This document shows positions 43,303 to 57,305 of a stretch of 64,000 nt of DNA, piece after piece. A program made the position numbers and the translations under genes. Origin of the DNA: an uncultured Pseudomonadota bacterium (GTDB lineage Bacteria; Pseudomonadota; Alphaproteobacteria; UBA9219); assembly GCA_903919315.1 (NCBI GenBank), contig CAIXHP010000008.1, positions 1 to 64,000 of the forward strand, read 5' to 3'. Under the pieces are notes generated by a model that saw nothing but the letters and a program-made list of their open reading frames with translations, had not been told where the DNA came from and made no database searches. Each line of letters begins with the position of its first letter. The stretch's first letter is position 1.

Positions 43303-43426
43303 GGGGACAGTTTAGCAGCCTCCTGCGCCCGTGTGTAGTACAAAATGGTTACTTTTTTCTGGACAGAAGTATCCGGAATGGGTACATTGCTTTTCGCGGT
43401 TTCAACGGTTTTTGCGGGAGGTTGGG

Positions 43427-43933
43427 ATGGGAATGCGTCGGGAGCCTGTGGCCACGGATCGTCGTTTGCGGCATCGCCTCGCGGCGGTCGATCATGGGCC
43501 TGCCGAGCGGTGGCAGCATTCCGGGCGCGTGATGGAATTGACGGAGCAGGCGGGGGTTCTGGCGGTGCGGGCCACCGAGGAGCATGCGCTGGATGTGTTG
43601 GTGCTGCGGGCTTGGATTTCCTCCGCGCAGCGCGAGGCGGCGTTACGGTTTCGCGCGGATTATCATTATGCGGGGATGGAGGCGCGGGTGGTCGGCAGCT
43701 ATAACCCGGCGCGTACCTCGTTCAGCCCGTTCGGCGGTTGGGACGAGCGCAGCGACGCGGAGGAGGCGGCCTATCAACGCTGGCGTAGCGCCATGCGGGC
43801 GATGGGGGCGGCAAACAGCGATGTGGTGGTGACGGTCGCTTGCCATGACCAGATGCCGGGACTGCGGCAGGCTCCGTTGCTCAAGGCGGGGCTGGATCGG
43901 TTGGTGAAGCACTATCGGTTGCCGGACGCTTGA
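43427..43933 (+). CDS. Hypothetical protein at the start of the phage-like cluster
   Basis: Complete ORF MGMRREPVATDRR…NPARTSFSPFGGWDERSDAEEAAYQRWRSAMRAMG; family not certain. Confidence 0.55.
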   Translation: MGMRREPVATDRRLRHRLAAVDHGPAERWQHSGRVMELTEQAGVLAVRATEEHALDVLVLRAWISSAQREAALRFRADYHYAGMEARVVGSYNPARTSFSPFGGWDERSDAEEAAYQRWRSAMRAMGAANSDVVVTVACHDQMPGLRQAPLLKAGLDRLVKHYRLPDA

Positions 43934-44417: not shown

Positions 44418-44804
44418 ATGACGGTGAAAGTGCGGAAGACTTTGTCTGAGGCGCGGCCAACCGTCACGACGACAACAAGCAAAAAATCGGCGAAGGCGAA
44501 AAGCGCGGGGCGACGCTCCGCGAAGGGGATCGCGCAGGTGCAGGCGGTTTTGCTCGCGCTGATGAGCGGGAGCGCGAGCGACGCGGTGCGCGTTTCGGCG
44601 GCCAAGACCTTGTTGGACAAATTGTTGCGGGACGACGCGGAGGGTGATGAAGCGCAGCGGCACGAGGCGGACGAGCGCGAAGCCGCCATCGCCGAAGCCG
44701 CTGTCTTGCTGGCGGAGCTTGCCGAAGGAATGTCTGGCGGCGTTCGTGAGCCGTCTGTGCTGGCTCCGGACGGCGCGGCCGCAACAACTGACTCCGCCGG
44801 GTGA
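44418..44804 (+). CDS. Putative terminase small-subunit-like protein
   Basis: Basic N-terminus, ASDAVRVSAAKTLLDKLLRDD; position directly upstream of and overlapping the large terminase. Confidence 0.45.
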   Translation: MTVKVRKTLSEARPTVTTTTSKKSAKAKSAGRRSAKGIAQVQAVLLALMSGSASDAVRVSAAKTLLDKLLRDDAEGDEAQRHEADEREAAIAEAAVLLAELAEGMSGGVREPSVLAPDGAAATTDSAG

Positions 44805-45951
44805 CTGGCGCGTCTGGCTTATTCTCGCGGGGCGCGGTTGGGGCAAGACGCGCACGGGGGCCGAGGATATTGCCGCTTATGCCTTGTGGAACGCGGGCGC
44901 TCGGATCGGCGTGATCGCGCCGACGTTCGCCGACGCGCGGGATGTGTGCGTGGAAGGCGAGAGCGGGTTGCTGCGCGTGCTGCCGCCCGCTTGCGTGGCC
45001 GCGTGGCACCGGAGCACGGGGGATTTGCTGCTGTTCAACGGCAGCCGGATTAAACTTTATTCCGCCGATCAGCCGGAACGGCTGCGCGGGCCGCAGCATC
45101 ATCGCGTTTGGTGCGACGAGCTGGGGGCTTGGCCGGGGCGGGGGGCTTTTGATCAGTTATGGTTCGGGTTGCGCCTTGGGCGCGACCCGCGTGTTGTTGT
45201 AACCACTACACCGAGGAATGCGCCTGTGATCCGCGAACTTTTTCAACGCAAGGACGTGCGGCTGACCCATGGCCGCACGATGGACAACGCCGCGCATCTC
45301 GCGCCGCGCGTGCTGGAGCAACTGACGGAACGTTATGCGGGAACGCGGTTGGGACGGCAGGAACTTGATGCCGAATTGCTGGAAGACACCGACGGCGCTT
45401 TGTGGAAGCGGCAGATGCTGGATTTGTGCCGCGTGCAGACGGCACCCGCGTTGCGGCGCGTCGTGGTGGCGATCGATCCGGCCATGAGCAACGGCGCGGC
45501 CAGCGACGAGACGGGAATCGTGGCCGCCGGACGCGGCGCGGACGGGATGATTTATGTGCTGGCGGATTGGTCGGGCAAGTTCTCGCCGGAGGGTTGGGCG
45601 CGTCGCGCCGTTCTGCTGCATCAGGATTTGGGCGCTCAGATGATCGTCGCCGAGGTGAACGCGGGCGGCGATTTGGTGGAACGCGTCGTGCGGCAGATCG
45701 CGCCGCAGATTCTGTTCAAGCCGGTGCGGGCTTTGCGCGGGAAGGCGGAGCGCGCCTTGCCGGTGGCGGCGCTGTACGAGCAGGGCCGCGTGCGGCATGT
45801 GGGCGCTTTGGCCGCGCTGGAGGATCAGATGTGCCGCTTCGCGCCGGGGAATGTGGCGGTGAAGTCGCCGGATCGCGTGGATGCATTGGTATGGGCGGTG
45901 ACGGAATTGAGCGAGACGGCGCGGGGGGAACCTCGGGTCAGGGTTTTGTGA
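44644..45951 (+). CDS. Phage/GTA terminase large subunit (true start may be later)
   Basis: PPGDWRVWLILAGRGWGKTRTGAEDIAAYALWNAGARIGVIAPTFADARDVCVEGESGLL; nuclease-domain VVVAIDPAMSNGAASDETGIVAAG. Confidence 0.93.
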   Translation: MMKRSGTRRTSAKPPSPKPLSCWRSLPKECLAAFVSRLCWLRTARPQQLTPPGDWRVWLILAGRGWGKTRTGAEDIAAYALWNAGARIGVIAPTFADARDVCVEGESGLLRVLPPACVAAWHRSTGDLLLFNGSRIKLYSADQPERLRGPQHHRVWCDELGAWPGRGAFDQLWFGLRLGRDPRVVVTTTPRNAPVIRELFQRKDVRLTHGRTMDNAAHLAPRVLEQLTERYAGTRLGRQELDAELLEDTDGALWKRQMLDLCRVQTAPALRRVVVAIDPAMSNGAASDETGIVAAGRGADGMIYVLADWSGKFSPEGWARRAVLLHQDLGAQMIVAEVNAGGDLVERVVRQIAPQILFKPVRALRGKAERALPVAALYEQGRVRHVGALAALEDQMCRFAPGNVAVKSPDRVDALVWAVTELSETARGEPRVRVL

Positions 45952-46233: not shown

Positions 46234-47451
46234 ATGGGGTTGCGGGATCTCGTGACGCAATGGGTGCGTCCTAAGGCTGGGGCTTTGGCGGTCAAGGCCA
46301 GTTCGGCGGGGCCTGTGGTGGCGTGGAGCCAGGTGGGCAAGCCGAAATGGACGCCGCGACGTTATGAGAGTTTGGCCGAAGAGGGATTCCGCAAAAACGT
46401 CGTGGCTTATCGCTGCGTGATGCAGATCGCGACTTCGGCGGCGGCGGTGCCGTGGTTGCTGTATGACGATTCGGGGACGGAGATTGACCGTCATCCGCTG
46501 TTGGATTTGTTGCGGCATCCTAATCCGTTGCAGGATGGGATGGCGTTTCTTGAAAACATCTATGCCAATCTTCAGATTGCCGGGAACGCTTATGTCGAGG
46601 CGGTGCCTTCGCGGGACGGGCAGCGACCGGTGGAGCTGTATGCGCTGCGGCCGGATCGCATGAAGGTCGTGCCGGGGCCTGCGGGGTTGCCGCAGGGATA
46701 GGAATATGGCGTGAATGGCCGTCTGACGCGCTGGAGCGCGGATCCCATCACGGGGGCCAGCGCCATTTTGCATATGCGGCAGTTTCATCCTTTGGATGAC
46801 TGGTACGGCATGGCGCCTTTGGAGGCGGCTTTGCTGTCGGTGGATCAGCACAACGCGGCGGGCGCTTGGAATCAGGCGCTGCTCAATCAGGGCGCACGGC
46901 CTTCGGGAGCTTTGGTGTTCGCGCCCAAGGACGGGGGCGCGTCGAACCTCAGCGACGATCAGGTGCAGCGTCTACGCGAGGAGATGGATCAACTTTATCA
47001 GGGCAAGGGCAACGCCGGTCGGCCGCTTATTCTCGAAGGAGGGCTGGACTGGCGCGAGATGAGCCTCAGCCCCAAAGACATGGACTGGCTGGCGGGACGG
47101 GACGCGGCGGCGCGGGATATTGCGCTGGCGTTCGGGGTTCCGGCGCAGCTCGTCGGGCTGTCCGGCGCTCAGACTTACGCCAACATGGCCGAGGCGCGGC
47201 TGGCTTTGTACGAGGAAACGGTGTTGCCGCTCATCCACCGCGTGATCGCGGCGTTTGATCATTGGCTGACACCGTTGTTCGACGATTCGCTCAACCTCGA
47301 TTTCGATATGGACGACATCAGCGCCCTCACGGCGCGGCGCGACTCGCAGTGGGACAAGCTGCAACGCGTCGATTTTCTCACCGTCAACGAAAAGCGCGCG
47401 GCGGTGGGGTATGGGCCGGTCGAGGGCGGCGATAGCGTGAGGGGCGCGTAA
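46234..47451 (+). pseudogene. HK97-type portal protein interrupted by one in-frame TAG codon (46699-46701)
   Basis: 46234-46701 (…DRMKVVPGPAGLPQG*) continues in the same frame as EYGVNGRLTRWSADPITGASAILHMRQFHPLDDWYGMAPLEAALLSVDQHN. Confidence 0.85.
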
Positions 47452-47502: not shown

Positions 47503-48111
47503 GTGATCATGGATATCAAACATATTGCGCGTCCGTTGGCGATCAAAACGCTGGCGGCGGACGGGTTGTTTTCGGGTTACGCCAGCGTGTTCGGCGTGGT
47601 CGACCATCAAAACGAAGTGGTCGCGCCTCAGGCCTTCACGCGCACTTTGGCGGGGTGGCGCGCGGCGGGACGCATGCCCGCGATGCTTTGGATGCACGAT
47701 CCGGCGCAGCCTATCGGGCTGTGGCTGGCGTTGCAGGAGGACAGGAAGGGACTTGCCGTGCAGGGCCGTTTGGCGCTGCGCACCCAAAAGGGCGGCGAGG
47801 CTTATGAACTGCTCAAGATGGGGGCGCTCACGGGGCTTTCCATCGGCTACCGCGTGGTGGCGAGCAAGGTCGACGGCAAGCGCAAGGCGCGGATGCTGAC
47901 CGATCTGGAACTGTTCGAAATTTCGTTGGTGACCTTTCCCGCCAACGAAGCCGCGCGGGTGAGCGAGGTGAAGTCGCCGCCGATCCTGTTGGGATCGCAG
48001 CGCCGACCCAAGACCGACTCCGACACGACGCGGGCCGTCGTTGCGCGGTTGCACGAAGCGGCCCGCGTTTTGAAACACAATCCCACACACGAATCCACAA
48101 GGAGGATTTAA
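47503..48111 (+). CDS. HK97 family prohead protease
   Basis: FSGYASVFGVVDHQNEVVAPQAFTRTL…MLWMHDPAQPIGLW…LTGLSIGYR…LFEISLVTFPANEAA. Confidence 0.93.
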   Translation: MIMDIKHIARPLAIKTLAADGLFSGYASVFGVVDHQNEVVAPQAFTRTLAGWRAAGRMPAMLWMHDPAQPIGLWLALQEDRKGLAVQGRLALRTQKGGEAYELLKMGALTGLSIGYRVVASKVDGKRKARMLTDLELFEISLVTFPANEAARVSEVKSPPILLGSQRRPKTDSDTTRAVVARLHEAARVLKHNPTHESTRRI

Positions 48112-48112
48112 T

Positions 48113-49345
48113 ATGATCGACATGAACGAGGTTCATGCGGCCACCGACACGTTGGCCCGGGCCTTTGAGGAATACAAAAGCGTCAACGACCAGCGCCTTG
48201 GCGAGATCGAACGGCGCGGCGCTCCGGACGTTCTGCTCGGCGAAAAGCTGGGGCGCATGGATCAGGCGCAGAACAAGTTGCAGGACGACATTAGCGGCGT
48301 GAAGACCGCTCTGCGCCGTCCGGCGCGTGGCCTTGCCGGGTTGGCGGCGGCTCAGGAGGGTGACGGCGAGTATAAGGGCGCTTTCCTGCGCTATGTCGCG
48401 AAGGGCATCGAACAGGAGTTGTCGAGCCTGCAGACCAAAGATATGAGCGTCGTCGCCGATCCGCAGGGCGGCTATATGGTGCCGGTCGAGATGGCGGATC
48501 GCATCGTCACGCGCCAGTTCGACAGTACGCCGATGCGCCAACTGGCGACGGTGATGACGGTGTCTTCGGAAGCGGTCGAGATGCTGCGCGACACCAACGA
48601 GCCTGTGGCGCAATGGGTTTCGGAACTGGGCACGCGCTCCGACACCGATCAGGGCGCGATTGGGCGCATTCGCATTCCGGTGCATGAGCTTTATGCGCAG
48701 CCGAAGGCGACGCAAAAGCTTTTGGACGACTCCATCATCAACATCGAAGACTGGTTGATCAGCCGCGTGGCCGGGAAATTCTCGCGTGCCGAGAACACGG
48801 CTTTTGTCAGCGGCGACGGCATCGGGCAACCGCGCGGATTTCTCAGCTATGCGACGCAGGCGGTCGGCGACAGCAGCCGTTCGTGGGGCGTTATGGAGCA
48901 TGTTATCACCGGCACCGACGGCGGTTTCGCCGCCAGCTCCGGCGCGGACGTGCTGATCAGCCTGATGCACAAACTGCGGGCCGGTTATTTGCCGAAAGCG
49001 ACGTGGCTGATGCCGCGCGCCGTGGCCGATCTGATCCGCAAGTTCAAGGAAAACACGACCCAGGCTTATATCTGGCAGCCGGGGTTGCAGGCGGGCGTGC
49101 CTGCGACGTTGTTGGGGCATCCCATCGTGCTGGCCGACGATATGCCGACGGCGGCGACCGGAAGTCTGTCGCTGGCCTTTGGCAATTTTGAGGAAGGCTA
49201 CACCATCGTCGATCGCGTCGGGCTGCGCGTGTTGCGCGATCCTTACACCTCGGCTCCGTTCGTCAAGTTCCGCTGCAACAAGCGCGTCGGCGGCGACGTG
49301 GTCAACTTTGAAGCCATCAAGCTGTTGAAGTTCTCGGCGAGCTAA
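48113..49345 (+). CDS. HK97-type major capsid protein
   Basis: Coiled-coil delta domain, then GGYMVPVEMADRIV…TWLMPRAVADLIRKFK…LGHPIVLADDMPT…FGNFEEGYTIVDRVGLRVLRDP. Confidence 0.93.
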   Translation: MIDMNEVHAATDTLARAFEEYKSVNDQRLGEIERRGAPDVLLGEKLGRMDQAQNKLQDDISGVKTALRRPARGLAGLAAAQEGDGEYKGAFLRYVAKGIEQELSSLQTKDMSVVADPQGGYMVPVEMADRIVTRQFDSTPMRQLATVMTVSSEAVEMLRDTNEPVAQWVSELGTRSDTDQGAIGRIRIPVHELYAQPKATQKLLDDSIINIEDWLISRVAGKFSRAENTAFVSGDGIGQPRGFLSYATQAVGDSSRSWGVMEHVITGTDGGFAASSGADVLISLMHKLRAGYLPKATWLMPRAVADLIRKFKENTTQAYIWQPGLQAGVPATLLGHPIVLADDMPTAATGSLSLAFGNFEEGYTIVDRVGLRVLRDPYTSAPFVKFRCNKRVGGDVVNFEAIKLLKFSAS

Positions 49346-49884: not shown

Positions 49885-50513
49885 ATGACGGCATTCACGC
49901 TTGTCACGCCGCCGGTGGTGGAGCCGGTGACGTTGAGCGAAATGAAGACTCAGGCGCGCGTCGATACGGACGCGGACGATACTTTGATCGCGGCGTTGAT
50001 CACGGCGGCGCGGCAATGGGCGGAGCGGTTTACAGGACGCGCGTTTATTGCGCAGACGTGGCGGTTGTGGCTTGATGTGCCGCCGGAGTCGCGGGGCGAT
50101 TGGTGGGACGGCGTGCGCGAAGGGGCCTTGGCGAGCTTTATGCCTGCCGCCTCCGTTGTGTTGCCGCGCCCGCCTTTGATGTCCGTCAGCAGCGTTCAGG
50201 TGTTCGGCGACGACGATGTCGGCGTGGTGTGGCCGTCGGCACATTATTTCGTGGATACGGCGCGGCAACCGGGGCGGTTGGCGTTGCGTTCGGGGGCTGT
50301 GTGGCCTGTGCCTCAGCGTGCGGCCAATGGGCTAATGATCGAATATGTTGCGGGCTATGGCAACGACGGCGCGGCGGTGCCGGAGCCGATCCGGTTGGCC
50401 ATTCGCCAGTTGGGGCGCACTGGTACGAACGACGCGGCGATGACGAGGCCCCTACGCCAGAGGTCGTGCAGGCGTTGTTGAATCCTTATCGAATCCAGAG
50501 TTTGGGGGGCTGA
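49885..50513 (+). pseudogene. Head-tail connector (gp6-like) with a 3' frameshift near 50410-50418
   Basis: Frame 1 …PEPIRLAIRQL then GRTGTNDAAMTRPLRQRSCRRC*. Another frame supplies the expected tail AHWYERRGDDEAPTPEVVQALLNPYRIQSLGG*. Confidence 0.78.
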
Positions 50514-50854
50514 TGCGTATCGGCGCGTTGCGGAAACGGCTGGCGTTGCAGAGCGAGGGACTCGCGCCGGACGGCGCGGGCGGCAGCATGGCCGTTTGGA
50601 CCACGGTGGCGACGGTGTGGGCGGCGGTGGAGCCAATTGCCAAGGCGGGCGCTTGGGTCGATAGCCGCTTTGACCGGCGCGTGACGCATGTGGTGACGAT
50701 GCGGTGGCGCGGCGATGTGGCGGTGACGACGGGGATGCGGTTGTTGCTGGGAAGCCGGGTTTTCATGATCCGCGCCGTGGCCAATCCTGTTGAGGGCAAT
50801 CGGTGGTTGGAACTACGGGTCGAAGAAGACGGGTTGCTGGGCGGGGAGGCTTAA
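50513..50854 (+). CDS. Phage head closure / head-tail adaptor protein
   Basis: MRIGALRKRLALQSEGLAPDGAGGSMAVWTTVATVWAAVEPI…RVTHVVTMRWRGDVAVTTGMRLLLGSRVFMIRAV. Confidence 0.85.
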   Translation: MRIGALRKRLALQSEGLAPDGAGGSMAVWTTVATVWAAVEPIAKAGAWVDSRFDRRVTHVVTMRWRGDVAVTTGMRLLLGSRVFMIRAVANPVEGNRWLELRVEEDGLLGGEA

Positions 50855-51481
50855 ATGGCGTTTGATGAAGTGTCGTTTCCGTTGTGCGTCGGCTATGGCG
50901 CGAGCGGCGGCCCCACGTTTTTGACGGAGGTCGTGACGATTGATGGCGGTTATGAACGACGCAACCAGTTGTGGAGTCAGGCGCGGCGGAAGTATGAGGC
51001 GCGGACGGGTGTGCGTTCGGCGGCGGATGCGGCGTTGTTGTCGGCTTTTTTTCAGGCGCGGGCCGGACGCGCGCGCGGGTTTCGGTTGAAGGACTGGAGC
51101 GATTTTTCCAGCGCGGCGGATGGGACATCGGCTCCGGACTGGCGCGATCAGACGCTGGGCTTCGGCAACGGCGTCGCGACGGTGTTTCCGTTGATCAAAA
51201 ACTACGGCAGCGGCGGCGTGTCCTATGCGCGTTCGATCCGCAAGCCTGTGGCGGGGAGCGTTTTGATTGGCGTGGGTGGCGTTCGGCTGATGACGGGGTG
51301 GAGCGTTGCGACGACGACGGGGCTTGTGAGCTTTTCCACGCCTCCTGCCGTTGGGGCCGCGATTACGGCTGGTTTTCTCTTTGACGTGCCGGTGCGTTTC
51401 GACACGGATCAGCTCTCTTTGACGGCGGAAGACGATCATATGGGGAAAGCGGAGATTCCCTTGGTGGAGGTTCGCGTCTGA
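50855..51481 (+). CDS. DUF2460 protein (GTA gp12-like distal tail protein)
   Basis: MAFDEVSFPLCVGYGASGGPTFLTEVVTIDGGYERRNQLWSQARRKYEARTGVRS…ARGFRLKDWSDFSS. Confidence 0.92.
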   Translation: MAFDEVSFPLCVGYGASGGPTFLTEVVTIDGGYERRNQLWSQARRKYEARTGVRSAADAALLSAFFQARAGRARGFRLKDWSDFSSAADGTSAPDWRDQTLGFGNGVATVFPLIKNYGSGGVSYARSIRKPVAGSVLIGVGGVRLMTGWSVATTTGLVSFSTPPAVGAAITAGFLFDVPVRFDTDQLSLTAEDDHMGKAEIPLVEVRV

Positions 51482-54400
51482 TGAAAACGATTTCTCCGGC
51501 TTTGCAGGCGCATTTGGACGGCGAGCTGACGACTTTGGCCGATTTGGTAAAAATCACGCGGGCGGACGGTGTCGTGAAGGCGTTTACTTCGCATGACGCG
51601 GATTTGGTCGTGGACGGCGTGACGTATGTGGCGGACGGGTCGTTTGCCGCGCATGCGTTTGATAATGCGGCGGCGCTTAAGGCGGATTCCGCTGCGATTG
51701 AAGGAATTTTAGATAGCGCTCTCCTGAGCGAGAACGAGATTAAGGCCGGACTCTACGATCATGCGCGGATTGACGTTTATGTGTGCAACTGGAGCGATCC
51801 GGCGCAGGGCGTTGTGCCGTTGCGGCGCGGGTGGTTGGGCGAGGTGCGGCTTGCGGGCGGGCGCTATGTCGCGGAACTGCGCGGGCTGCATGATTTGTTG
51901 CAGCGAACCGTTGGGGATACTTATACGCCGGAGTGCCGTTATGACCTCGGCGATGCGCGTTGCGGCGTGAATGTCGCGGCTTTGACCGTGGCAGGTAGCG
52001 TCAGCGGCGTTGCGGATCGCGTGGTGTTTACCGATGCGGCGCGGACGGAGGCGGCGGGCGTTTTCAATTACGGCAAGCTGGTCTGGACGAGCGGGGCCAA
52101 TACGGGTCTCAGCATGGAAGTGCAGAATTGGGATGCCGCGAGCAGGACGTTTACGTTGTGGTTGCCGATGCCGAATAATGTGGCGGGGAATATCGTTTGG
52201 GCTTCCAGCCTGATTGAAACAGCGCATGAAAATCAGGTGGGCGGCGGCAAGGGCGGCGCTTTGGGCGGCGGGGGAACGCGAACCACCTATAGCTATAGTC
52301 TTCATTGCGCGGTGGCGATTTGCTCAGGCGTTATCGGCGGCATCGCGACCATTTGGGCTGACAGCAAGGTGATTTATCAGAACGGCGTTTGGAAGACGGG
52401 CGTTGTCGGCAATGCGACGGTTTATGCTGGAACAGCGACGCAGGACGTGGATCCGTTGATGGAGTCCATGATCGGGGCGGGGCAGGTTCCGGCTTATCGC
52501 GGCGTGGCCTATATCGTGTTGGAGTCGCTGCAACTGGCGGATTTCGGCAGCCGGTTGCCCAATCTGACGTTCGAAGTCTTGCCGCAGGACATTGCGCCGG
52601 AGCCGACGTGGCTTGGCGTGGTTGATGCGGGCGTGAATTTCAGCGCGGTAACGATGCGCAACGGCGGCATGCCGCCCTTGACGATTGAGGGCGGAAGTTC
52701 TGGCGCGCGTCGCGTGTTGATGGGCGGCTATACGGTTACGGGCGCGACGGCGACGTTTACCGCGACGGCGTATGATGTGACCGGCGACGTTCCGGTTGAG
52801 CAGGCGCGGACGCAGAGCGCGGGTTTCGCGGTCAGCGATGTGGGCGATCACAGTTGGGCGCTCGCGCCCGATGGGCGGTTTGTGGCGTTGTGTCTTCAGG
52901 ACGCTTCGACGACTCCGACGCACCGACTGGCGCTTTACGATGTCGAGAACCGGCAGTTTGGGGCGCTTTTGTCGTTGAACTTGCCCGCCGGAAACGATCC
53001 CAAGCGCGTGGCTTGGATCGATGCGCAACATTTTGTGCTGACGGATGTCGCGGGCGGCAAGCGCGGGCTGCGCGTTCTGGCGCGTGCGGGGTTGTCGGTT
53101 GTTGATCTGGGGTTCTTCGATGTTTGGGGCGCGGGGTCGGCGGCGGCGATGAAGCCGCTTTATTACGCGCAGTTTACGCCTTTGGCGGACGGGTTGTTAC
53201 ATTATGCGGCGAACACGTCGCCATACTTTACCGCGATCTACGTTAGGCCGGTGTATTGGCAGGGCAACCGATTGGTGGTGGGGGCGGCCTATACGCTCGT
53301 CAGCGGCGTGGCTACGGGGTCGGGGAGCGGCGTTCAGGCGCATTTGATTCCTACCGGCGACGGCGAATGGACTTTGTTTTACGCTTCCACCATCGATATG
53401 CGGATGATGTCGTTTCGTCCGGGGGTGAGTTCGGCCATCGTCACGCGGCCATGGCAGATTTTGGTCAACGCATCGTTCAGTCTGGCGGCCAGTCAGAATC
53501 CGGTCGTGTTCGGCGACCGGATCGTGGTTGTTCAGCGCAGTTATCTCGAAAACATTTATCGGTTGTCAGAAATCGCGCTGAACGATAGCGGCTTTGCTTT
53601 GGTTGTCGATGGGGTGGAGGTGGCGGGGTGTTCTTCGCCGCTCGTGGATTTCGGCGCGGCGGCTTTGGACGGGGCGCGGCTTTTCCTGATGGGGCTGAGC
53701 GGCTTTGAGTATCGGTTGTCCCAGTTTGCCATTGTTCGGCGGCGTCCTACGGGGGATCGGTTGGACGCGATTGTCGCAGGTCTTTTGGCGCGTGCCGGAT
53801 ATGACGACGGCGATGTCGATGTGACCGCTTTGGCCGATGTACCGGTGGACGGCTATGTGATGGCGGAGCCGATGACGGCGGCGGCGGCGCTCGCGCCGTT
53901 GCAGCTGTTCGAGCCGTTTGATCTGGTGGAGAGCGGCGCTCGGCTGAAGGCGGTGAAGCATGGCGGCGCGGCGGTCGTTTCCGTCGCCGTCACCGAAATG
54001 CGGGCGAGCGACAAGGCGGCGGCGGAGCCTTTGCGCGAGCAGGCGCGGGCGCAGGAGCTGGACTTGCCAGTCGAGGTGACGGTCGATTATCTCGACGCGT
54101 CGCGGGATTATGAGGTCGGCAGCCAGCGGGCGCGGCGCTCGGCCACGCGCGGGGCGCGGATGATGGCGAAGTTGCGTTTGCCCTTGGTTTGTTCGGCGGC
54201 GCGGGCAAAACAGATCGCTGAAGAGCGTTTGTTCGCCGCTTGGGCCGAGCGCGATCAGGTCACGTTGCGCCTGTCACGGCGCTGGCTGGCTTTGGAGCCG
54301 GGCGATGTGGTCAATCTGGGCGACCGTTTGCTGCGCGTGGCGCGGGTGCGGCGGCAGGGTGGATTGCTGGAGGTGCAGGGCGCGTTGATCGCGGCATCAC

Positions 54401-55377
54401 CTGTGAACAGCGCGGCGCAAGCGGACAGCGGGGCTTTGAGCGGAGGCGTTTCCGTCGCGCCGGTGGCCAGCGTTTTGTATTTGATGGATTTGCCGCTGTT
54501 GCGCTCTGCCGACGATCAGCCGGGCGTTTATGCGGCGGTGAGCGGGATTGCGGGTTGGCCGGGAGCGTCTTTGTGGCGTTCGCCTGATGCGGTGAATTTC
54601 AGCAACGTTGCGGGGTTTAGCGTTCCGGCCATCGCGGGGATCGCGGTGACGGCGTTGGTGGATGGGCCTTCGCTTTACATGGATCGCGCCGGAACGGTGC
54701 AGGTTCAGATGCTGCAAGGTTCGCTGGCAAGTTGCGGTGAGGCCGATCTTTTGAACGGGGCGAATGTCGCGTTTCTCGGCGGCGAGTTGATCCAGTTTCA
54801 GACGGCGACGCTGGCGGGGCCGGGGTTGTACGCGCTGAGCAATCTGTTGCGCGGTCGGCGCGGCACCGAAAGCGCGATGGCGACGCATGTCGTCGGGGAG
54901 GGCTTTGTCGTTTTGACTCCGGGGACGGTGCAGTTCCTTCCGGCGGCACTGGCGGATCGCGGGAACACGCACATGTTTCGCGCTTTGAGCAACGGCCAGA
55001 GTTTGGGGGCGGCGGCGGATGTTGCGTTGACTTATGGGATGGCGACGCTGCGGCCTTTGGCTCCGGCGCATGTCGCGGGCGTTCGCAGCGGGGGCGATTT
55101 GATCGTGACGTGGACGCGACGGGCGCGGTTGAACGGCGAATGGATCGACAATGTCGATGTGCCTTTGGACGAGCCGGTCGAGCTTTACGATGTCGAGATT
55201 ATGAACGGCGGGAGCGTCTTGCGCACGTTTGCGGGCGTGACGGCGGCGAACGTGACTTATACCGCCGCGCAACAGAGCGCGGATTGGGGTGGCAGCATTC
55301 CGGCGCAGTTTAGCGTGAGGGTTTATCAGCTCAGCGCGCGCTATGGGCGCGGGCAGGCGGCGAGCGCGGTGGTTTAG
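51481..55377 (+). CDS. Fusion: N-terminal DUF2163 (GTA gp13-like hub) + phage tail tip/host-specificity protein (GTA gp15-like)
   Basis: N-terminus MKTISPALQAHLDGELTTLADLVKITRADGVVKAFTSHDADLVVDGVTY; from about residue 230 NIVWASSLIETAHENQVGGGKGG…YSLHCAVAICSGVIGGIATIWADSKVIY, characteristic of gp15-type proteins. Confidence 0.88.
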   Translation: MKTISPALQAHLDGELTTLADLVKITRADGVVKAFTSHDADLVVDGVTYVADGSFAAHAFDNAAALKADSAAIEGILDSALLSENEIKAGLYDHARIDVYVCNWSDPAQGVVPLRRGWLGEVRLAGGRYVAELRGLHDLLQRTVGDTYTPECRYDLGDARCGVNVAALTVAGSVSGVADRVVFTDAARTEAAGVFNYGKLVWTSGANTGLSMEVQNWDAASRTFTLWLPMPNNVAGNIVWASSLIETAHENQVGGGKGGALGGGGTRTTYSYSLHCAVAICSGVIGGIATIWADSKVIYQNGVWKTGVVGNATVYAGTATQDVDPLMESMIGAGQVPAYRGVAYIVLESLQLADFGSRLPNLTFEVLPQDIAPEPTWLGVVDAGVNFSAVTMRNGGMPPLTIEGGSSGARRVLMGGYTVTGATATFTATAYDVTGDVPVEQARTQSAGFAVSDVGDHSWALAPDGRFVALCLQDASTTPTHRLALYDVENRQFGALLSLNLPAGNDPKRVAWIDAQHFVLTDVAGGKRGLRVLARAGLSVVDLGFFDVWGAGSAAAMKPLYYAQFTPLADGLLHYAANTSPYFTAIYVRPVYWQGNRLVVGAAYTLVSGVATGSGSGVQAHLIPTGDGEWTLFYASTIDMRMMSFRPGVSSAIVTRPWQILVNASFSLAASQNPVVFGDRIVVVQRSYLENIYRLSEIALNDSGFALVVDGVEVAGCSSPLVDFGAAALDGARLFLMGLSGFEYRLSQFAIVRRRPTGDRLDAIVAGLLARAGYDDGDVDVTALADVPVDGYVMAEPMTAAAALAPLQLFEPFDLVESGARLKAVKHGGAAVVSVAVTEMRASDKAAAEPLREQARAQELDLPVEVTVDYLDASRDYEVGSQRARRSATRGARMMAKLRLPLVCSAARAKQIAEERLFAAWAERDQVTLRLSRRWLALEPGDVVNLGDRLLRVARVRRQGGLLEVQGALIAASPVNSAAQADSGALSGGVSVAPVASVLYLMDLPLLRSADDQPGVYAAVSGIAGWPGASLWRSPDAVNFSNVAGFSVPAIAGIAVTALVDGPSLYMDRAGTVQVQMLQGSLASCGEADLLNGANVAFLGGELIQFQTATLAGPGLYALSNLLRGRRGTESAMATHVVGEGFVVLTPGTVQFLPAALADRGNTHMFRALSNGQSLGAAADVALTYGMATLRPLAPAHVAGVRSGGDLIVTWTRRARLNGEWIDNVDVPLDEPVELYDVEIMNGGSVLRTFAGVTAANVTYTAAQQSADWGGSIPAQFSVRVYQLSARYGRGQAASAVV

Positions 55378-55470: not shown

Positions 55471-56061
55471 ATGCCTACGCCTAATCTTGCGCTTGCCTAT
55501 CTGGTCGCTTCGCAGGCGCAGAAGGAAGTGACGCACAATGACGCGCTCAATGATCTTGATGCCTTGGTGCAGCTGTCGGTGATCGACAGGACGTTGAATG
55601 CGCCGCCGGGGTCGCCTGCGACGGGCGATGTTTACATCGTCGGATCGTCGCCGACGGGCGCTTGGGCTGGGAACGCGGGGAAGGTCGCGGCTTATTACGC
55701 CGGATGGAAGTTCAAAGCGCCGGAGGCCGGGTGGACGGCCTGGGCGCGGAATGAAAATCATTTGTTGTACTACACTGGCACAGCGTGGGCCGGGGTGGGC
55801 GCGCCTTTTCTGGATGCGACGTGGACATGGAATCCGGGCGTCATCGCGAATGGCAGCGGCGTTGCGTCGTCGGCGGTCACGGTGACGGGCGCGGCTTTGG
55901 GCGATTTTGCGCGGGTGGCGGCCCCCTATGATCTGCAAGGCGTGATCGCCACGGCTTATGTCAGCGCGGCCAACACCGTTGCGGTGAGGATTCAGAACCA
56001 GACCGGAGGCAGCGTGACGCTGGCTTCGGGGACGTGGCGCGTGCGCGTAACGAAAGTTTGA
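55471..56061 (+). CDS. DUF2793 domain phage protein
   Basis: MPTPNLALAYLVASQAQKEVTHNDALNDLDALVQLSVIDRTLNAPPGSPATGDVYIVGSSPTGAWAGNAGKVA. Confidence 0.88.
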   Translation: MPTPNLALAYLVASQAQKEVTHNDALNDLDALVQLSVIDRTLNAPPGSPATGDVYIVGSSPTGAWAGNAGKVAAYYAGWKFKAPEAGWTAWARNENHLLYYTGTAWAGVGAPFLDATWTWNPGVIANGSGVASSAVTVTGAALGDFARVAAPYDLQGVIATAYVSAANTVAVRIQNQTGGSVTLASGTWRVRVTKV

Positions 56062-56069
56062 GGTGCGGG

Positions 56070-56351
56070 ATGAAACTGGAACTGAGTGAAACGATCGGAC
56101 GACATGTGCCGTTGGCGCTGGTGGCCGCTTTGGCGTTGCAGGGCGCGTCGGTGGTGTGGTGGGTCTCGGCGCGGGATCGCGATCATTTTTTTCTGGAGCA
56201 GCGCGTTACCAGTCTGGAATCCGGTTTGACGCGCGAAGCCGGGACGCAGGCTCAGGTAACGGAACGTCTGGCGCGGATCGAGGAGCGCATGAACGCCCAA
56301 CTGGCCGTTCTGGATCGGATCGAGAAGCAAATCAACGCCGCGCACAAATAA
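56070..56351 (+). CDS. Small membrane protein with coiled coil, possible lysis accessory
   Basis: One TM (VPLALVAALALQGASVVWWV) followed by a coiled coil; precedes lysozyme and holin genes. Confidence 0.55.
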   Translation: MKLELSETIGRHVPLALVAALALQGASVVWWVSARDRDHFFLEQRVTSLESGLTREAGTQAQVTERLARIEERMNAQLAVLDRIEKQINAAHK

Positions 56352-56362
56352 CAGGAGTCCGC

Positions 56363-56896
56363 ATGACGGATAGAACCGTGGAGCCAGCTTTTGGCGTGAC
56401 GATGCCGGTGTGGGCGCAGCGTCGCGTGAACGCGGCGGGCGTAGCTTTGGTCAAGGATTTTGAGGGGCTTCACCTTGCGCCCTATCTGTGTCCGGCGAAG
56501 GTTTGGACCATCGGGTATGGGCATACGCGCACCGTGAGGGCGGGGATGCGGATTTCGCCGGAGCAGGCGGATCAGCTGTTGGCCGACGATTTGAGCCTTG
56601 CGGCCCGCGCTGTGGCGCGGTTGGTGCGGGTGCCTTTGAACGACAATCAGTTCGCGGCTCTGGTCAGTTTCGTTTTCAATGTCGGTACGACGAATTTTGA
56701 GAATTCGACGTTGTTGAAGCTGCTCAATCGCGGTTGGTACGAACAGGTTCCGGCGCAACTGACACGCTGGAATCGCGCTTCGGGCGAAGTGTTGGGCGGG
56801 CTGGCGCGGCGGCGGGCGGCGGAGGCGCGGTTGTGGGGCACGGAGCCAAGGCCTGCGTTGCCGGACATTTTCGCAGCGACGGTGGGGGAGGCGTGA
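56363..56896 (+). CDS. Phage-type lysozyme (GH24)
   Basis: ALVKDFEGLHLAPYLCPAKVWTIGYGHTRTVRAGMRISPEQADQLLADDLS…LNDNQFAALVSFVFNVGTTNFENSTLLKLLN. Confidence 0.93.
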   Translation: MTDRTVEPAFGVTMPVWAQRRVNAAGVALVKDFEGLHLAPYLCPAKVWTIGYGHTRTVRAGMRISPEQADQLLADDLSLAARAVARLVRVPLNDNQFAALVSFVFNVGTTNFENSTLLKLLNRGWYEQVPAQLTRWNRASGEVLGGLARRRAAEARLWGTEPRPALPDIFAATVGEA

Positions 56897-56897
56897 G

Positions 56898-57305
56898 ATG
56901 TGGCAGGCTTTGATCGCGCCGGTTTTTTCCTTGATCGACAAGCTGATCCCCGATCCCAAGGCGCGCGAGGCGGCCAAGCTGCAATTGATGCAGGCCGAGG
57001 GGCAGCAGGCGTTGCAGGAGATTCAGGCTTCGCTGTCCGCCATCGTGACCGAGGCGCAGAGCGCTGACCCTTGGACGAGCCGCGCGCGCCCCAGCTTTTT
57101 GTATGTGATTTATGTTTTGATCCTTGCGGCGGTGCCGATGGGGGTTGTGTATGCCTATGATCCCGCCACCGCCAAGAGCGTTACCGAAGGCTTTCACGCT
57201 TGGCTGGCCGCGATTCCGGAACCGCTGATCCAACTGTTCGGGGTTGGGTATCTTGGCTATACCGGCGCGCGGAGTTTCGATAAGTGGCGGGGGGTGGGGA
57301 AGTAG
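56898..57305 (+). CDS. 3TM-type phage holin family protein
   Basis: FSLIDKLIPDPKAREAAKLQLMQAE…SRARPSFLYVIYVLILAAVPMGVVYAYDP…FGVGYLGYTGARSFDKWRG. Confidence 0.85.
   Translation: MWQALIAPVFSLIDKLIPDPKAREAAKLQLMQAEGQQALQEIQASLSAIVTEAQSADPWTSRARPSFLYVIYVLILAAVPMGVVYAYDPATAKSVTEGFHAWLAAIPEPLIQLFGVGYLGYTGARSFDKWRGVGK

Follow-up and report, generated by a model that had tools for sequence, protein, structure and literature searches.

The window, by which we mean the whole 64,000-nucleotide stretch of DNA analysed here, probably carries a vertically inherited RcGTA-type gene-transfer-agent (GTA) cluster, derived from a domesticated phage and undergoing inactivation, in which a deletion of ~0.8 kb fused the genes for the baseplate hub and the megatron by chance in frame, giving a product that is most likely non-functional. 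The fusion itself is real in the assembly and was correctly described by an earlier, sequence-only reading: positions 51481-55377 of the forward strand form a single uninterrupted ORF of 1298 codons with zero internal stops, which passes, as that reading had it, from a DUF2163-like part to a gp15-type part. Family, structure-chain and orthologue comparisons resolve this 1298-aa protein into residues 1-234 of the hub (gp13, TIGR02218/PF09931) followed by the megatron (gp15) from residue 75 to its end, thus minus its first ~74 residues. Searches of Pfam, NCBIfam, PHROGs and the PDB all split the ORF in two, with a border at about residue 234. On the hub side, residues 5-164 match PF09931 (E 1.6e-53), residues 24-234 match positions 2-210 of the 266 of TIGR02218, and residues 193-235 match PF09356, in its first half only; on the megatron side, residues ~755-1297 match NF048004 (GTA_megatron), PF13550 and PF23666, with an NF048004 score of 485.5 bits that, for the window protein scored alone, lies below the equivalog cut-off of 800. 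The solved hub and megatron chains of RcGTA and R4C each match their own half, and the matches to both families break off at the junction.

The hub part (51481-52182, forward strand) keeps the attachment domain, recognised by the PF09931 and TIGR02218 searches, the oligosaccharide-binding domain and the first two Fe-S cysteines (C152 and C161), and is devoid of the C-terminal ion-binding segment and the clip domain. The megatron part (52180-55377, forward strand) begins at about orthologue residue 75, without the iris/penetration domain and the start of the adhesin-like domain. Orthologue alignments place the junction at fused residues 233-236 (52177-52190, forward strand), where, in an alignment with 14 hub-megatron pairs, the conserved LWLPMPN closes the hub part and the conserved VAGN, a stretch located at residues 73-78 in most relatives, opens the megatron part. 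The DNA at this point reads AATAAT-GTGGCGGG-GAAT, of which AATAAT belongs to the hub and the following GTGGCGGGGAAT encodes V-A-G-N of the megatron. The breakpoint falls within ~8 bases assignable to either side, so that any microhomology, as deduced from homologues and not from the ancestral sequence of this lineage, spans at most ~8 bases.

Hub residues ~236-281, the whole of gp14 and megatron residues 1-74 are missing, amounting to ~0.8 kb in total; most relatives have ~0.8-1 kb between their hub and megatron matches, and some carry extra DNA there. The proposal that a deletion had removed the hub C-terminus, gp14 and the megatron N-terminus is sustained by the orthologue alignments and by the separate genes of the relatives. 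In these relatives, an orthologous NlpC/P60 gene separates the hub from the megatron (PF00877 match at L036:8846-9319); it is absent from the window cluster. A relocated copy was sought in the genome, where only distant copies turned up, mostly in other phage-like clusters; even the close ones among them, sited in such clusters, are only 36-39 % identical. As to mechanism, we infer that the ~0.8 kb was lost, apparently between two short similar sequences, one at the boundary of the hub C-terminus and the other within the N-terminal domain of the megatron, taking with it the end of the hub, the entire NlpC/P60 gene and the start of the megatron, and that the frame would have been left open by chance, creating one hub::megatron ORF.

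The comparison set comprised 33 same-order genomes and two closer viral contigs, L036 and L035, of which L036 is ~67-71 % identical to the window in the hub and megatron parts. Wherever both genes are present, L036 and L035 included, hub (~280 aa), NlpC and megatron (~1140 aa) each have a gene of their own, in keeping with the earlier statement that GTA-like clusters hold two distinct genes with NlpC/P60 between them. On the question, raised by the same reading, of its occurrence in relatives, no second hub::megatron fusion was found among the 33 genomes and the two contigs. G016 was examined as a candidate because a search table listed a 1555-aa frame covering both parts, and was rejected as stop codons appear between the two genes on translation. 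A different in-frame fusion, joining the megatron to a DUF2793 fibre-like gene, occurs in G007 (L034 1928-5893). Three more phage-like clusters in G000 (L027, L028 and L029, on C23 and twice on C30), ~45 % to the hub, carry Dit, hub, NlpC and megatron as separate genes, and that of L028 also includes a tail tube and a tape measure of 842 aa, as in a prophage.

Both halves of the fusion match the hub and megatron chains of the RcGTA baseplate (hub Rcc01696, g13; peptidase Rcc01697, g14; megatron Rcc01698, g15), whose order gp12-gp13-gp14-gp15 is that of the window's relatives, whereas the window has one ORF and no gp14; in RcGTA numbering, its hub ends near residue 243 and its megatron begins near residue 75. 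The baseplate of roseophage vB_DshS-R4C is built from the same hub and megatron families (8gtc chains P and M), with the difference that these are separate genes there and that R4C possesses a full-length siphophage tail. Within the same bacterial family, the clusters of G013, G016, G022, G005 and G007, with megatrons 48-57 % identical to that of the window, contain the same genes, at a shared chromosomal site in those with compared flanks, but unlike the window have intact portal, adaptor, hub, NlpC and megatron genes where read.

The rest of the window cluster, all on the forward strand, runs in RcGTA-type order from terL through portal, protease, capsid, adaptor, stopper, Dit and hub to megatron, with NlpC missing and portal and adaptor broken. 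The portal gene (46234-47451) is a pseudogene with an in-frame TAG at 46699-46701, a codon that specifies tyrosine in complete relatives, and the head-tail adaptor gene (49885-50507) is frameshifted by a 1-nt deletion near 50412, its homology resuming in a different frame from 50415. Intact are the terminase large subunit (44644-45951), the major capsid protein and a prohead-protease-like gene assigned by position and homology to relatives (47503-49345), the head completion protein or stopper (50513-50854) and, directly 3' of it, the gp12-like distal tail protein (DUF2460; 50855-51481); a DUF2793 fibre-like gene, a lysozyme and a GTA-type holin with three TM segments (55471-57305) follow, the holin closing the cluster. 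Between the post-capsid gene and the adaptor, L036 (4402-6347) and L035 (4135-6025) carry ~2 kb of additional unassigned ORFs that the window is without.

What has been lost is central to the known systems. Four cysteines hold an Fe-S cluster in the RcGTA hub, whose ion-binding residues are 143-167 and 250-263 and whose clip domain comprises residues 264-296, while residues 1-46 of its megatron form the iris/penetration domain (PMC7296036); in R4C, the Fe-S cluster is stated to be essential for tail assembly (PMC10276861). All four cysteines are invariant in 14/14 hub orthologues, and the fusion retains two of them, being deprived of the other two together with the ~46 C-terminal residues containing the clip domain, and of the iris/penetration domain within the region of megatron orthologue residues 1-74. 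Furthermore, deletion of the gp14 peptidase in RcGTA leads to empty heads without tails (PMC7296036). With half of the Fe-S ligands lost along with the clip domain, the peptidase and the pore-forming iris helix, and with portal and adaptor damaged too, the fused product is most likely non-functional, and the cluster would represent a recently inactivated relic rather than the source of a new working protein.

Could the fusion nevertheless work? Since hub and megatron are both trimers, with three copies of each in the R4C baseplate (PMC10276861), fusing them 1:1 could still allow a simplified baseplate to form in a GTA whose tail is already reduced, and the open frame, the conservation of both halves, the megatron::DUF2793 fusion of G007 and the family-wide tail simplification fit such a view. 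Against it stand the portal nonsense codon and the adaptor frameshift, the missing cysteines and domains, the loss of a peptidase whose deletion prevents native particles in RcGTA, and the occurrence in one genome only, so that we regard a functional fusion as very unlikely. Very improbable, too, is a further step of functional reduction towards a tube-less GTA with a single hub-megatron baseplate protein, no peptidase and no iris helix.

An assembly or consensus artefact, in which the junction and perhaps also the portal and adaptor lesions would be errors of a draft genome, might be suspected from an assembly of 70 contigs to which the fusion is unique. Yet the two sides share at most ~8 similar bases, far below usual assembler k-mers, and three separate lesions lie in the GTA cluster, whereas no frame is interrupted in the nearby host genes with relatives (the polymerase, prephenate dehydratase and genes at 60-63 kb and at 68-71 kb), rendering this explanation unlikely. 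That some phages normally encode hub and megatron as a single protein, the ORF being a known single-family architecture, found no support in family and phage-record searches: its halves belong to two families, phage records match piecewise with none covering 80 % of the query, and the genes are separate in every same-order genome having both. Its probability appears negligible. Inactivation by deletion remains our preferred reading, and a counterpoint is that 1298 codons are still open and the halves are as constrained as intact genes, which fits either a recent or a maintained event.

The suggestion that retention of the frame hints at selection was not borne out, given the nonsense codon and the frameshift in the same operon and a fused product without parts to which studies of RcGTA and R4C assign an essential or central role. 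Chance keeps the frame in one of three cases, which calls for no selection, and its retention carries little weight beside those two lesions. Unique substitutions in the window against L036 (15 vs 27 in the hub, 86 vs 106 in the megatron) reveal no acceleration on the window branch, and a search for relaxed constraint through invariant-site violations in hub and megatron gave no signal. The dN/dS comparison that had been recommended, run pairwise, returned low values similar to those of neighbouring genes, albeit with dS near saturation. As neither part of the fusion evolves faster than its neighbouring genes, the lesions are likely recent, and an open frame therefore says little about selection; similarly, the absence of acceleration together with neighbour-like dN/dS suggests that most divergence predates the lesions.

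The cluster is flanked upstream by a polyA/CCA polymerase (PolyA_pol) gene and a DUF6456 gene, shared with G013, G016 and G022, and downstream by a prephenate dehydratase gene, shared with G007, G013 and G022. Because this chromosomal site is conserved, the comparison indicates a GTA-like cluster that has been inherited vertically and lost independently by relatives. The DUF6456 gene (43331-43933, forward strand), an annotation that occurs among GafA homologs (PMC9638019), is a candidate GafA/GafZ-type activator, present as one gene per genome in most genomes tested; in several relatives, too, it lies just upstream of the cluster. G001 resembles the window in harbouring a decayed GTA cluster, although decay is much further on, with no hub left and a remnant (L060 5687-8966) of DUF6456, a terminase fragment, a megatron fragment and the holin, while in G003 DUF6456 is present and no cluster was found behind it. 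Loss has therefore occurred more than once.

Compared with RcGTA, the window cluster lacks a recognisable tail tube and tape measure and leaves no room for them between stopper and Dit. The tail tube family PF06199 is found in 0/24 genomes of this bacterial family, whose intact GTA-like clusters contain no recognisable tape measure gene. In the family clusters read (L021 1012-15201, L022 958-18949, L023 294-15066 and L030 268-16497), the stopper-to-Dit interval holds a tail terminator, in several with an unassigned ORF of ~100-160 aa and in some with extra ORFs. The terminator and the small helical ORF are absent between stopper and gp12-like gene in the window; a window-specific loss of the terminator was considered and rejected, because the stopper adjoins Dit in the same way in L035 and L036. 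A sister family retains tube and chaperone genes, yet at its locus L032 no ORF ahead of Dit is of tape-measure size. In the literature we found nothing direct on hub-NlpC tail-tip fusions or on tube-less GTAs.

Taken as a recent event, the fusion offers a clear case of GTA inactivation seen before erosion, and cautions that an open fusion within a GTA or prophage cluster, even a long one, is not necessarily a new protein. More useful than the fusion is the family comparison, which points to a family of GTA-like clusters that are inherited vertically, have reduced tails and allow losses of GTA function to be mapped onto a tree.
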